Assembly: GCA_002256245.1 (NCBI GenBank) | Contig: NKIU01000002.1 | Coordinates: 310,001 to 374,000, forward strand | DNA length: 64,000 nt | DNA from: Pseudorhodobacter sp. PARRP1 | GTDB lineage: Bacteria > Pseudomonadota > Alphaproteobacteria > Rhodobacterales > Rhodobacteraceae | Direction: 5' to 3' | Shown here: positions 6,249 to 61,118 of the stretch, piece by piece | Numbering within the stretch: the first letter of the stretch is position 1 | Layout of the letters: each line of letters opens with the position of its first letter | Translations under genes and position numbers: made by a program | The notes under the pieces: model-generated | What the model was told of the DNA's origin: nothing | Seen by the model: the letters and a program-made list of their open reading frames with translations, nothing else | Databases searched by the model: none

Positions 6249-6285
6249 GAGCCTCCGGCGGGGATATTTGGGCAGAGAGGATGAA
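6249..6285 (+). repeat. Intergenic repeat family 1, copy A
   Basis: Contains the core GCCTCCGGCGGGGATATTT at 6251-6269, followed by GGGCAGAGAGGATGAA. The same core occurs near 8613, 8652, 35555, 35594, 59497 and in decayed form near 61087. Here it is a single arm without an inverted partner. It lies in the 266-bp gap between the DMT transporter start and the sdaA terminator. Confidence 0.85.
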
Positions 6286-7841: not shown

Positions 7842-8480
7842 TCAGTAGGGGTTGGAAAACAGCGTGAGGGCGAGGCCTTCGGCCTGCGCGCAGGCCTGCG
7901 CTGCCGGGCGCGCTTCAAGCGCCAGCAGGATCTTGTGCAGGAAAGGGTAGTTGGTTGCGGGGCAGGGCTCGGCCAGCCAGCGCATCAGCACGGCGACGTA
8001 GTAGCCAAGGATCGAGGGTTTGGTCGAAAGCCAGTCGGGGGCATCCAGCGCCACCATGTTTTCCAGCGTGGCCAGCAGCGCCTGCAGCTGTGCGGCGGCC
8101 ACGGCTTTGACGGCGGCGGCGTTCTCGGGGCCTGCCAAGCGTTCGGGATAGTAGTAATTCATCGCCACCGGATGCAGGTTGTTCGAGGTGAAGAACAACC
8201 ATGTCAGAAACGGCCCACGCTCGGGCGTGTTGGGGGCGGGGGCAAGTTGGCCGGTGATTTCGGACAGATGCAGCAGGATCGCTGCGGTTTCAAACAGCGT
8301 CGCATCGCCGGTTTGCAGGGCGGGGATTTTGCCCAACGGATGCAGTTTGCGGTAAGCCGGGCTGTCAAGCGCGCCGCCTGCGCGGTCGATGGCTGCGATC
8401 TGGTAGGGCAGGCCTAACTCCTCCAGCACCAGCCGGACGATCAGGGCAGCCGAGTCGGGGGTGTGGTGCAGGATATACAT
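7842..8480 (-). CDS. Glutathione S-transferase family protein
   Basis: Cytosolic protein of 212 aa with the two-domain GST layout. The N-terminal thioredoxin-like half runs from MYILHHTPDSAALIVRL to about residue 78 and includes LHPLGKIPAL, with the cis-Pro for glutathione binding, and the ETAAILLHL helix that supplies the Glu-Ser/Thr-type contact. The rest is the helical C-terminal domain. Substrate unknown. The start at 8480 is preferred over the longer ORF because GGAGAGCGCA precedes it at normal spacing and the protein then begins directly with the first beta strand. It is upstream of sdaA, with a 12-bp gap. Confidence 0.9.
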   Translation of the reverse strand: MYILHHTPDSAALIVRLVLEELGLPYQIAAIDRAGGALDSPAYRKLHPLGKIPALQTGDATLFETAAILLHLSEITGQLAPAPNTPERGPFLTWLFFTSNNLHPVAMNYYYPERLAGPENAAAVKAVAAAQLQALLATLENMVALDAPDWLSTKPSILGYYVAVLMRWLAEPCPATNYPFLHKILLALEARPAAQACAQAEGLALTLFSNPY

Positions 8481-8783
8481 TGCGCTCTCCATGTGTCGCG
8501 GCAGTATGGCGCAAGGTGGCGCGGATACCATGCGAAAACCGACACTATTTGGTGCGCAGCGGCGCTGCGTGTTGGCGGGCTGAGGGAAAATGCCGTGGTT
8601 TCACCTGTTCTCAAATATCCCCGCCGGAGGCTTCCGACATAGGCCGCAGGAGCCTCCGGCGGGGATATTTGAGAACAGGTGAAATTGCTGTCGGCGGCCA
8701 AGACCCGCCATGCTCAAAATGAGGGGCGACGCCGCCGGGGCGGGACGCAAATTTTAGTCTTGTTTGAGTGGTTTTTCTTGCCG
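8481..8783. other. Intergenic region without genes, 303 bp
   Basis: Between the mntH-like gene and the GST gene, both on the minus strand. It holds the large inverted repeat at 8599-8684 and, at 8749-8758, an AAATTTTAGT string that also occurs downstream of copy A at about 6371. No convincing ORF was seen. Confidence 0.7.
8599..8684. repeat. Intergenic repeat family 1, copies B and C as a 34-bp inverted repeat
   Basis: Two copies of the family-1 core face each other. Arms at 8599-8632 and 8651-8684 are perfectly complementary over 34 bp, with an 18-nt loop. The RNA of either strand could fold into one long hairpin. It lies about 100 bp after the stop codon of the Nramp transporter gene and may end or protect that transcript. 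Confidence 0.9.
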
Positions 8784-10112
8784 TCAGCCGATGAAATCCC
8801 AAAGCAGTTTCAGGTTCAGCGCGATGATCACCGCCGCAATCAGGACGGCCAGCGCCACCAGCCAGCGCGGGGCGGCGAGCGCGCCCATCTTGGCGCGGTT
8901 GGCGGTGAACATCACCAAGGGGACAACGGCGAAGGACAGTTGCAGCGACAGGACCACTTGGGTGAGGATCAGCAACCGACCGGTGCCGGCGCTGCCGTAG
9001 TAGAGGGTGACGCCTGCGGCGGGGATGATCGCGATGGCGCGGGTGATCAGGCGGCGCAGCCAGGGGGCCAGGCGGAATTGCAGGAAGCCTTCCATCACCG
9101 CCTGGCCCGCGAGGGTGGCGGTGACGGTGGAGTTCAAACCGCAAGCCAGCAGGGCGATGGCGAACAGCGAGGGGGCTATGCCAGAGCCGAGCAGGGGGCC
9201 GAGCAGTTGGTGGGCGTCGCCGAGTTCTGCGACCTCGGTCTGGCCGGTGGCATGGAACGAGGCGGCGGCAAGGATCAGGATGGAGGCGTTGATCAGCAGC
9301 GCGAAGGTCAGCGCCACGGTGCTGTCGATGGTGGCGAATTTCAACGCCTCGCGCTTTTCCGCGATGCTGTCGCCGTAGTCGCGGGTTTGCACGATGGCGG
9401 AGTGCAGGTAGAGGTTGTGCGGCATCACCGTTGCGCCAAGGATACCAAGAGCGAGGTAGAGCATTTCGGGGTTGCGCAGGATCTCGGTCGTTGGGGCGAA
9501 GCCTTTGATTACGCCTGCCCAATCGGGATCGGCCATGGCGATTTGCAGCCCGAAGCACAGCGCGATCACCCCCAGCAGGGTGATGATGAACGCCTCAAGC
9601 CAGCGAAAGCCCTTGGTTTGCAGCCACAGGATCAGGAACACATCCAGCGCGGTGATCAGCACGCCGAATTCCAGCGGGATGCCGAACAGCAGGTTCAGGC
9701 CGATGGCGGTGCCGATCACCTCGGCGATGTCGGTGGCGATGATGGCGATTTCGGCCGCCAGCCACAAAGGGATGCTGATGTAGCGCGGGTAGGCGTCGCG
9801 GCAGGCTTGCGCCAGATCGCGGCCCGAAGCGATGGCGAGGCGGGCGCAGAGCGATTGCAGCACAATCGCCATCAGGTTCGAGATCAGCGCCACCACCAGC
9901 AGCGTGTAGCCGAATTTCGAGCCTCCGGCCAATGAAGTCGCCCAGTTGCCGGGGTCCATATAGCCCACCGCCACCATATAGCCCGGCCCAAGGAAGGCGG
10001 CGAAGCGGCGCCATGTGCCCTTCGGCAGGCTGACAGAGCGATGCACATCGGCGAGGGCTGCGTCTCCGCGGGGTTGCTTCCAGTTGGTGGACAGATCGAA
10101 GGGCGAGGGCAT
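8784..10112 (-). CDS. mntH: Nramp family divalent metal transporter (Mn2+/Fe2+, MntH-like)
   Basis: Proton-coupled importer of Mn2+ and other divalent metals in the inner membrane. The protein of 442 aa has 11 hydrophobic helices in prospect. The two metal-binding unwound helices are intact: YMDPGNWAT (DPGN motif, helix 1) and MPHNLYLHS (MPH motif, helix 6). The longest ORF begins at 10157, but the ATG at 10112 is chosen because a Fur/Mur-type operator (10128-10144) would otherwise sit inside the coding region. It is divergent from rpiA. The name is by family; whether Mn or Fe is preferred cannot be read from the sequence. Confidence 0.92.
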
Positions 10113-10127
10113 GGTGGCTTTCTGATA

Positions 10128-10144
10128 TTGAGAATTATTCGCAA
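10128..10144. promoter_or_regulatory. Fur/Mur-type metal-responsive operator
   Basis: Near-perfect palindrome TTGAGAATTATTCGCAA, 15 bp before the chosen mntH start. The TTGNGAAT-N-ATTCNCAA form matches the known Fur-family box. In alphaproteobacteria the regulator of mntH genes is usually Mur, a manganese-responsive Fur homologue, so repression by Mn2+ is the expected behaviour. Confidence 0.75.
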
Positions 10145-10243
10145 TGTAGCTTTGCATCGGACTCTGTCAAGGGCGATGTGATTCCCCCCTCGCCCCATCG
10201 CTGTGCTTTGCCTATAAGGACGCAACAGTGTCAGGAGCCGCTT

Positions 10244-27747: not shown

Positions 27748-27787
27748 GCGGGGGAGGCTCCGATGTTGGGCGTTGATTTTTATCGTT

Positions 27788-27838
27788 GGGTTAGGCGTTT
27801 TTGCGGGTTAGGCGTTTTTGTGGGTCAGTCGTTTTTGC
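27788..27838. repeat. 17-bp tandem repeat, three units, at the potI 3' end
   Basis: Units GGGTTAGGCGTTTTTGC (27788-27804), GGGTTAGGCGTTTTTGT (27805-27821) and GGGTCAGTCGTTTTTGC (27822-27838). Unit 3 contains the stop codon and last codons of the permease gene; units 1 and 2 repeat that gene tail, each with another stop codon. Confidence 0.9.
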
Positions 27839-28628
27839 GGGTCAGCAGGAAGAACGCCGTCAGCAGCACGATGGTCAGCGCCAGCAGCATCGACGAGATG
27901 GCGTTGATCTCAGGCGTAAGCTGGCGGCGCATCTGGCCGAGCATATAGGTGGGCAGGGTGTCTTGGCCGCCGGATTTGGTGAACTCGGTAATCACCACGT
28001 CATCAAGGCTGATCACGAAGGCCAGCATCGCGCCCGCGATCACACCCGGCAGCAGGATCGGCAGGGTGACATGGCGGAAGGTTTGCCACGGGCTTGCGTA
28101 AAGATCGGCGGCGGCGGTTTCCAGCGTCAGATCCATGCCTTCCAGCCGGGCGCGGATCGGCAGATAGGCGAAGGGGATGCAGAAGGCCGCGTGCGCGAAG
28201 ATCACATAGCCGATGCCTTGGATGCCGGTGACTTGTTTCACCATGCCGAACAGGATCAGCAACGACACGGCGGTGACGATCTCGGGCACCATCAAGGGCT
28301 GGTTGATCATCACATAGATGAAGGTCTGGCCTTTGAACGCCTTGCGCCGGGTGGTGCCAAGGGCCGCCATGGTGGCAACAGCGGTCGAGATGACCGCCGC
28401 GCAGACGGCGATCAGCAGAGAGCGCACGGTGGCGTCTTTGACCGCGTCATTGTTCCACGCCTTGATATACCAATCCCACGAAAACCCGCCCCAGATCGCC
28501 ACCGATTGGCTGGCGTTGAATGAATAGGCCACCAGCGTGAGGATCGGCAGATAGAGGGCCACGAACACGATCACCGCCGTGGCGGTGAAGCCGGGCAGGG
28601 TTGAGACGGAGAAGGTTTTAATGGCCAT
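27825..28628 (-). CDS. potI: ABC transporter permease, PotI/PotC-like
   Basis: Inner-membrane permease subunit of the polyamine-type importer, 267 aa. Six hydrophobic helices are visible, with the cytosolic coupling loop EAA-like motif ETAAADLYASPWQTFRHVTL at about residue 165, which contacts the ATPase. The start at 28628 (MAIKTFSVS) follows closely on the end of the upstream permease gene and overlaps it by 11 bp, indicating coupling. The gene ends in a 17-bp tandem repeat that spans its stop. Confidence 0.92.
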   Translation of the reverse strand: MAIKTFSVSTLPGFTATAVIVFVALYLPILTLVAYSFNASQSVAIWGGFSWDWYIKAWNNDAVKDATVRSLLIAVCAAVISTAVATMAALGTTRRKAFKGQTFIYVMINQPLMVPEIVTAVSLLILFGMVKQVTGIQGIGYVIFAHAAFCIPFAYLPIRARLEGMDLTLETAAADLYASPWQTFRHVTLPILLPGVIAGAMLAFVISLDDVVITEFTKSGGQDTLPTYMLGQMRRQLTPEINAISSMLLALTIVLLTAFFLLTRKND

Positions 28629-35537: not shown

Positions 35538-35626
35538 GGCTTTCACGCTGGCTTAAATATCCCCGCCGAAGGCTCTTGCTGGCAACCACAGAAGCCTCCG
35601 GCGGGGATATTTAGGCAGAGAGGATG
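35536..35626. repeat. Intergenic repeat family 1, copy D (facing pair)
   Basis: Left core AAATATCCCCGCCGAAGGC at 35555-35573 and right core GCCTCCGGCGGGGATATTT at 35594-35612 face each other. Stem arms of 21 bp (35554-35574, 35593-35613) pair with one mismatch. The left flank GGGCTTTCACGCTGGCTT also resembles the flank of decayed copy F at 61087-61118. The right flank GGCAGAGAGGATGA is shared with copy A. It starts at the rluD stop codon and may terminate that gene. Confidence 0.85.
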
Positions 35627-39358: not shown

Positions 39359-39418
39359 GCCCCGGACTTGATCCGGGGCCTCCTGCATCACCAAGAGGCC
39401 CCGGATCAAGTCCGGGGC
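39359..39418. terminator. Facing pair of family-2 palindromes, likely bidirectional terminator
   Basis: Perfect 24-bp inverted repeat. Each arm contains CCCCGGACTTGATCCGGGG or its complement; the loop is 12 nt (39383-39394). It lies between the convergent Gfo/Idh gene and pepF, 30 bp after one stop and 10 bp before the other. Confidence 0.75.
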
Positions 39419-59496: not shown

Positions 59497-59540
59497 AAAT
59501 ATCCCCGCCGGAGGCATCCGACATCTGCCCCAAAACCATG
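59497..59540. repeat. Intergenic repeat family 1, copy E with decayed right arm
   Basis: AAATATCCCCGCCGGAGGC at 59497-59515 is intact, and its flanks GTTCTG and ATCCGACAT match copy B at 8607-8640, including part of the loop. The facing right arm is reduced to CGGCGGGGAT at 59531-59540. Confidence 0.8.
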
Positions 59541-60972: not shown

Positions 60973-61086
60973 TTTGGAAAATTGTTGTTTTTCAAGGGGG
61001 TGGTTTTAGGCGTTTAGGCTTTGTTAAGGGGTTGGTCGATGCAATTCATTTTGCGCCGGGGGCTTGGCGGCGCGGTTGAAGCGCGC

Positions 61087-61118
61087 CGCGCCGGGATATT
61101 TTAGCCAATGTGAAAGCC
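61087..61118. repeat. Intergenic repeat family 1, decayed copy F
   Basis: CGCCGGGATATTTTAGCC followed by AATGTGAAAGCCCT. It resembles, in opposite orientation, the left flank of copy D at 35536-35567. It ends exactly at the stop of the aminotransferase gene. Confidence 0.6.

Follow-up and report, generated by a model that had tools for sequence, protein, structure and literature searches.

The perfect inverted repeat at positions 8599-8684 of the window, by which we mean the whole 64,000-nt stretch of DNA analysed here, is one copy of a dispersed, untagged REPIN/BIME-like repeat that is typical of Rhodobacteraceae gene ends. By computation, we observe a repeat family, its inverted-pair form, its placement after genes, paired change in its outer arms and an all-or-none identity between arms. 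The explanation that we favour as a whole, with moderate confidence, is a REPIN/BIME-like repeat whose arms have been homogenised at the DNA level and which forms a putative transcript-end hairpin, with no specific tie to manganese. As a single locus the repeat is ordinary; as a family it is less so.

The hairpin and its repeat family

The two arms of the window pair are exact reverse complements (34/34 pairs) and enclose an 18-nt loop (TCCGACATAGGCCGCAGG), just as the original prediction, made by reading the sequence, had described them. Folding of the RNA from 8580 to 8710 gives -87.2 kcal/mol, compared with a mean of -43.7 for shuffled sequences (z -11.0; 0 of 200 shuffles as good). Among the 18 inverted repeats that a scan of the window up to a distance of 300 gave, this pair is the longest perfect one. 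The same prediction regarded the arms as two elements of one intergenic family, and this holds: both contain the 19-mer GCCTCCGGCGGGGATATTT, of which the window has six copies when up to three mismatches are allowed, against 0.05 expected. It also placed the repeat about 100 bp past a manganese transporter gene, and the outer arm indeed ends 99 nt from the mntH stop codon, which is farther than in most pairs of the family. The pair is flanked by mntH and a glutathione S-transferase (GST)-like gene, both on the minus strand, with mntH pointing towards it. The features of the window are listed below.

Features of the window that belong to, adjoin or resemble the repeat family
Feature	Position	Strand	Details
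Left arm	8599..8632	-	Outer arm 8599-8612 (TTTCACCTGTTCTC) and minus-strand core half-unit 8613-8631 (plus 1 paired base)
Loop/spacer	8633..8650	.	18 nt, variable between copies
Right arm	8651..8684	+	Core half-unit 8652-8670 (GCCTCCGGCGGGGATATTT) and outer arm 8671-8684 (GAGAACAGGTGAAA)
Second repeated module adjoining the pair (GGCCAAGACCC ... CGCAAATTTTA)	8691..8768	.	Motif GGCCAAGACCC at 8696-8706
mntH, Nramp Mn/metal transporter, upstream of the pair	8784..10157	-	PF01566, 439 bits
Downstream glutathione S-transferase-like gene	7842..8492	-	Start from the gene caller; alternative ORF start 8531
Single half-unit of the family, partner arm missing	6251..6269	+	
Another pair of the family	35551..35616	+	Arms 35551-35574 and 35593-35616, 92%
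Half-unit of a decayed pair, then an ordinary T-tailed hairpin (seen in the sequence)	59497..59515	-	
Outer arm and AAAATATCCC fused with an unrelated GC hairpin, immediately past the end of a gene	61066..61118	-	By eye; extent approximate

The genome from which the window comes (4.35 Mb, 28 contigs) holds 24 inverted pairs with exact cores. A 19-base half-unit together with an outer arm of about 14 bases is present twice, head to head, and each pair comprises two copies of GCCTCCGGCGGG(GA/AG)TATTT. Although spacers of 14-44 nt were allowed, all 24 have one of 18-20 nt, and all show the REPIN trait of a short conserved sequence doubled in inverted orientation around a fixed-length spacer. Half-units of the form GCCTCCGGCGGGRRTATTT number 118 in this genome (70 forward, 48 reverse; control 0). 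We distinguish three types of outer arm, namely A (GAACRGATGAAA), B (GCAGAGAGGATGA) and C (either GGCCAAGATGAAG or GGCCAATGTGAAG), and both like and unlike types combine within pairs; the window pair is of the A-like type, with perfect arms. In the 20 own-genome pairs with matching cores, perfect arm lengths are 37, 34, 34, 33, 32, 26, 26, 23, 23, 22 and 21, followed by 20 in five pairs and 19 in four; in the remaining four of the 24, the cores differ between arms. Long perfect arms (32-37 bp, the longest being 37 bp) are thus found in 5/24 pairs, the window copy among them. In 7/24, the motif GGCCAAGACCC of the adjoining module is found at 24-26 nt from the edge of the core.

The half-unit was searched for in 61 genomes, namely the own genome, 14 of the same genus, 22 of the same family and 24 of the same class. 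It is present in 28, all of them from the family of the window (28/37), and is found in none of the 24 genomes from other families of the class. Chance or a local duplication, with neither family nor function behind it, could account for the perfection of the arms and for nothing beyond it; the 24 pairs of the own genome and the spread of half-units over 28/61 genomes already refute it, and we assign it practically no probability. On GTDB contigs, the pair pattern was found in at least 109 stretches. The titles of the 109 listed stretches name Rhodobacterales, Rhodobacteraceae, Paracoccaceae or their genera, which we take to belong to Rhodobacterales, except for two that read ‘Alphaproteobacteria bacterium’ (L082, L115). 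The pattern requires near-exact cores, so the conservation of the core in the fetched loci is partly due to selection by the search itself. We also observed the pair pattern in six viral_contigs records (L184-L189); as to plasmid carriage, a 106-base query gave no match at E 1e-5.

Rfam returned no matches in the window at the gathering threshold. Its six matches below threshold at 8555-8691, five of them to microRNA families and the sixth to an sRNA, are of a kind that any long hairpin may give. Among the open-access papers listed, we recognised none describing this repeat family, and a search with core sequence strings returned 0 papers.

Placement after genes and the manganese question

Gene contexts come from a custom gene caller based on codon usage, for which 31 ORFs of the window served as training set; it was applied to other genera too, and its starts are rough. 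All 24 own pairs are intergenic; 13 lie between convergent genes, 11 between co-directional genes and 0 between divergent ones. For the GTDB set, removing duplicates and pairs less than 400 bp from an end left 100 pairs among the matches listed, of which 1 overlaps a called gene. The 99 intergenic pairs among these listed matches are divided into 42 convergent, 53 co-directional and 4 divergent, while the background gaps of at least 86 bp at the same loci include 71 convergent and 99 divergent of 370, giving a convergent excess (Fisher p 5e-6) and a divergent deficit (p 9e-8). Again among the matches listed, the outer arm lies a median of 7 nt from the nearest stop codon, and the upstream stop is the nearer one in 46/53 co-directional pairs. 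Going by gene names read from the proteins, a pair lies between pyrC and pyrE at L093, L155 and L169, and another, in the own genome, between kynU-like and kynA-like genes (L039).

This after-gene position fits a role at transcript ends. Judged by placement alone, we infer that a transcript-end hairpin would be the most likely use of the repeat. Once transcribed, the hairpin on either strand could serve as a transcript-end structure, either blocking 3'-exonucleases or acting as a weak bidirectional terminator, and such service would lead to copies being retained after genes and rarely between divergent ones.

Several findings count against our preferred explanation. The intrinsic-terminator scan returned 0 terminator-like sites, with no T-run and a loop of 18 nt. 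There are 51 single half-units in which the core is kept without a partner arm, and those between co-directional genes do not clearly favour either strand (18 sense, 13 antisense). The pairs between pyrC and pyrE lie inside an operon, where full termination would be costly. To these we add the 99-nt stop distance of the window copy and, as described below, the weak hairpin signal at some mntH 3' ends and the similar numbers of G-U and A-C cells on the sense strand.

A plain bidirectional intrinsic terminator, its sequence copied round the genome, would likewise explain why pairs are placed after genes, and a GC stem set between AAATAY and RTATTT would suit it, as would the same AT block on other GC hairpins at pyrC 3' ends (by eye). 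It is a distinctly improbable reading, given the 18-20 nt spacer, the absence of both T-run and terminator call, the ordinary T-tailed hairpins that exist in the window besides, and the intra-operon pyrC-pyrE sites.

The order of mntH and the GST-like gene is kept in most relatives examined. Among the 10 same-genus genomes with an MntH gene, including the own genome, only the latter and G007 have a pair beside it. At the same site in G009, G005 and G001, a different GC hairpin is attached to a similar outer arm and AAATAT block, with z-scan values of -3.7, -4.8 and -1.1, respectively, the last being no significant match; the remaining relatives have neither a pair nor the outer arm/AAATAT block with a GC hairpin there. 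Over 11 mntH 3' ends, the hairpin z-scan fell below -3 in 6 and was weak (above -3) in 5, so the notion of a hairpin always following mntH is borne out only partly. We considered a manganese-responsive element and rejected it, since other pairs lie beside unrelated genes and, among these 10 genomes, a pair at mntH is common only to the own genome and G007. The repeat has no specific tie to manganese.

At pyrC 3' ends, where 90 loci were examined from 98 genomes with a match, the core was found at up to four mismatches in 13/90 (both arms in 3, one arm in 10), some of which may be chance. By eye, several unrelated GC hairpins in the pyrC-pyrE gap (L289-L378) are accompanied by the AAATAY / RTATTT block and outer arm, either on the left only, on the right only or as a pair. 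This suggests that the block and outer arm make up a wider family than the 19-mer core. More generally, caution is needed with long hairpins that recur at Rhodobacteraceae gene ends, since they could be taken in error for regulatory RNAs of individual genes.

Origin of the arm perfection

We tested how well arms pair by swapping them between pairs. The longest Watson-Crick outer stem is 7.09 within pairs, compared with 3.96 (sd 0.22) for mixed arms. Of the 150 examined pairs, 22 have an unbroken match of 13 or more outer bases, whereas exchanging arms of the same type gave a mean of 1.4 and a maximum of 7 in 2000 draws. Zero mismatches are found in 17 of the 62 like-type pairs, against 1.3 expected, and the remainder resemble the control. 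Arm identity is therefore two-humped, all or none, as would result from rewriting an arm in one step rather than from slow compensation.

For co-directional genes, G-U cells on the sense strand do not exceed A-C cells (69 vs 62, p = 0.60), and an excess would be expected if RNA pairing were what is kept. Taken together, the all-or-none arms and the absence of sense-strand tolerance for G-U favour homogenisation at the DNA level over selection for RNA stability. The original prediction had offered both kinds of cause, i.e. duplication or gene conversion between arms and selection for a stable RNA. The first is supported by the excess of perfect runs and of mismatch-free like-type pairs, while the second gains no support from the G-U counts or the empty terminator scan.

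Arms were also compared in relatives, where the original prediction had suggested looking for compensatory changes. The G007 pair after mntH is perfect over 14 outer bases, yet its arm letters differ from those of the own genome. Similarly, L031 and L220 represent the same site with symmetrical arms in both, and the outer arms and core type are different.

On these sequence comparisons, the perfection of the arms is probably best read as DNA homogenisation, in which template switching or conversion would have produced perfect arms in a single step. As an alternative, whole new copies may have replaced old ones at a site. Template switching can create and restore perfect stems, according to the excerpted text of Monttinen & Loytynoja (2022, PMC8794818), and the hairpins described there resemble ours in that one event makes or restores perfect arms with many paired changes; those hairpins are described for RNA genes, whereas here the setting is a dispersed intergenic repeat. 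The approximately 150 examined inverted pairs offer a natural set for comparing perfect arms with imperfect ones, and thereby for deciding between template switching and RNA selection as the origin of perfect bacterial hairpins.

RAYT genes, GTAG REPs and related elements

The closest known kind of element is the REPIN/BIME, from which ours departs in having neither a GTAG nor a CGTC tag and in occurring also in genomes that lack RAYT. In the account of Bertels & Rainey (2011, PMC3116915), REPINs share with our repeat the form of inverted, hairpin-forming doublets of a short conserved GC-rich sequence, a variable spacer of nearly fixed length, compensatory changes, an extragenic position and the occurrence of singlets. 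Unlike these REPINs, the repeat lacks the GTAG tag, has its conserved 19-mer inside and its variable, covarying part outside, persists in RAYT-free genomes and has no half-unit beside the RAYT gene of its own genome. GTAG/CGTC REPs are similar in lying mostly in convergent or co-directional gaps, downstream of coding regions (excerpts of Di Nocera 2013, PMC3733652), and differ in their tags, neither of which the half-unit has; by eye, GTAG and CGTC are absent from both core and outer arms. None of the names Rhodobacter, Roseobacter and Dinoroseobacter appears in the text of that paper (PMC3733652).

Pfam Y1_Tnp proved too insensitive for RAYT here, being marginal in the own genome and missing G003 and G007, and a protein query and NF047646 were used instead. 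The own genome has one RAYT (NF047646, 132.9 bits against a cut-off of 80, at G000:C28), which sits between SDR-like and zinc-ribbon-like genes (read from the sequence), with no exact-core unit seen beside it. Among the 20 RAYT loci examined, an exact core lies within the flank shown only at L276 (G003).

The presence of this RAYT raises the alternative of a true REPIN that is mobilised by the RAYT of its genome, gene ends being where insertions are tolerated. The inverted pairs with a fixed-length spacer have the REPIN form (as excerpted from PMC3116915), and within the genus half-unit numbers split by RAYT, at 37-192 in 10 RAYT-bearing genomes and 0-16 in 5 without (p = 0.0026), while GTAG-type REP numbers do not follow RAYT (p = 1.0); this split may, however, be that of one clade, and the RAYT-less members are less complete. 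Outside the genus, half-unit number is unrelated to RAYT (9 genomes with, 13 without, p = 0.87). Seven RAYT-negative genomes that are at least 91% complete (G015, G016, G017, G019, G026, G030 and G033) hold 14-72 half-units, and G025 has a RAYT and 0 half-units. With the tag missing and no exact-core unit beside the own RAYT, we consider mobilisation by RAYT unlikely, although less so than a plain terminator.

In G003, a GTAG REP lies just outside 27/34 pairs (L381-L414) and points outward, with REPs on both sides in 17. Measured from the core, the REPs lie at 21-22 nt or 34-37 nt, and once at 29 nt; of the G003 REPs fetched away from exact pairs, 8/29 have a core upstream within 75 nt. These fixed distances recall the mosaics of alternating repeats in BIMEs (Nunvar 2010, PMC2817692, in excerpt), from which the repeat differs in that its core pair stands without REPs in the own genome. 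That GTAG REPs are part of the same element was rejected for the own genome on this ground, as 0/21 own-genome REPs have a core upstream within 75 nt. Returning to the untagged REPIN-like element of our preferred explanation, a more elaborate version of it is possible but doubtful: the core would be constrained throughout Rhodobacteraceae, the arms periodically rewritten by template switching and the arm ends used as fixed docking sites for RAYT REPs, so that composite palindromes would grow outward layer by layer. REPs have docked at the repeat in one lineage, and the repeat itself does not need them.

Two further repeats in the window are recorded here. Positions 39359-39418 hold another strong inverted repeat (GCCCCGGACTTGATCCGGGGC), with 27-bp arms at 96%, between convergent genes, and at 27787-27845 a 25-nt unit (GGGTTAGGCGTTTTTG) is present three times at 17-bp spacing, directly after a gene end.
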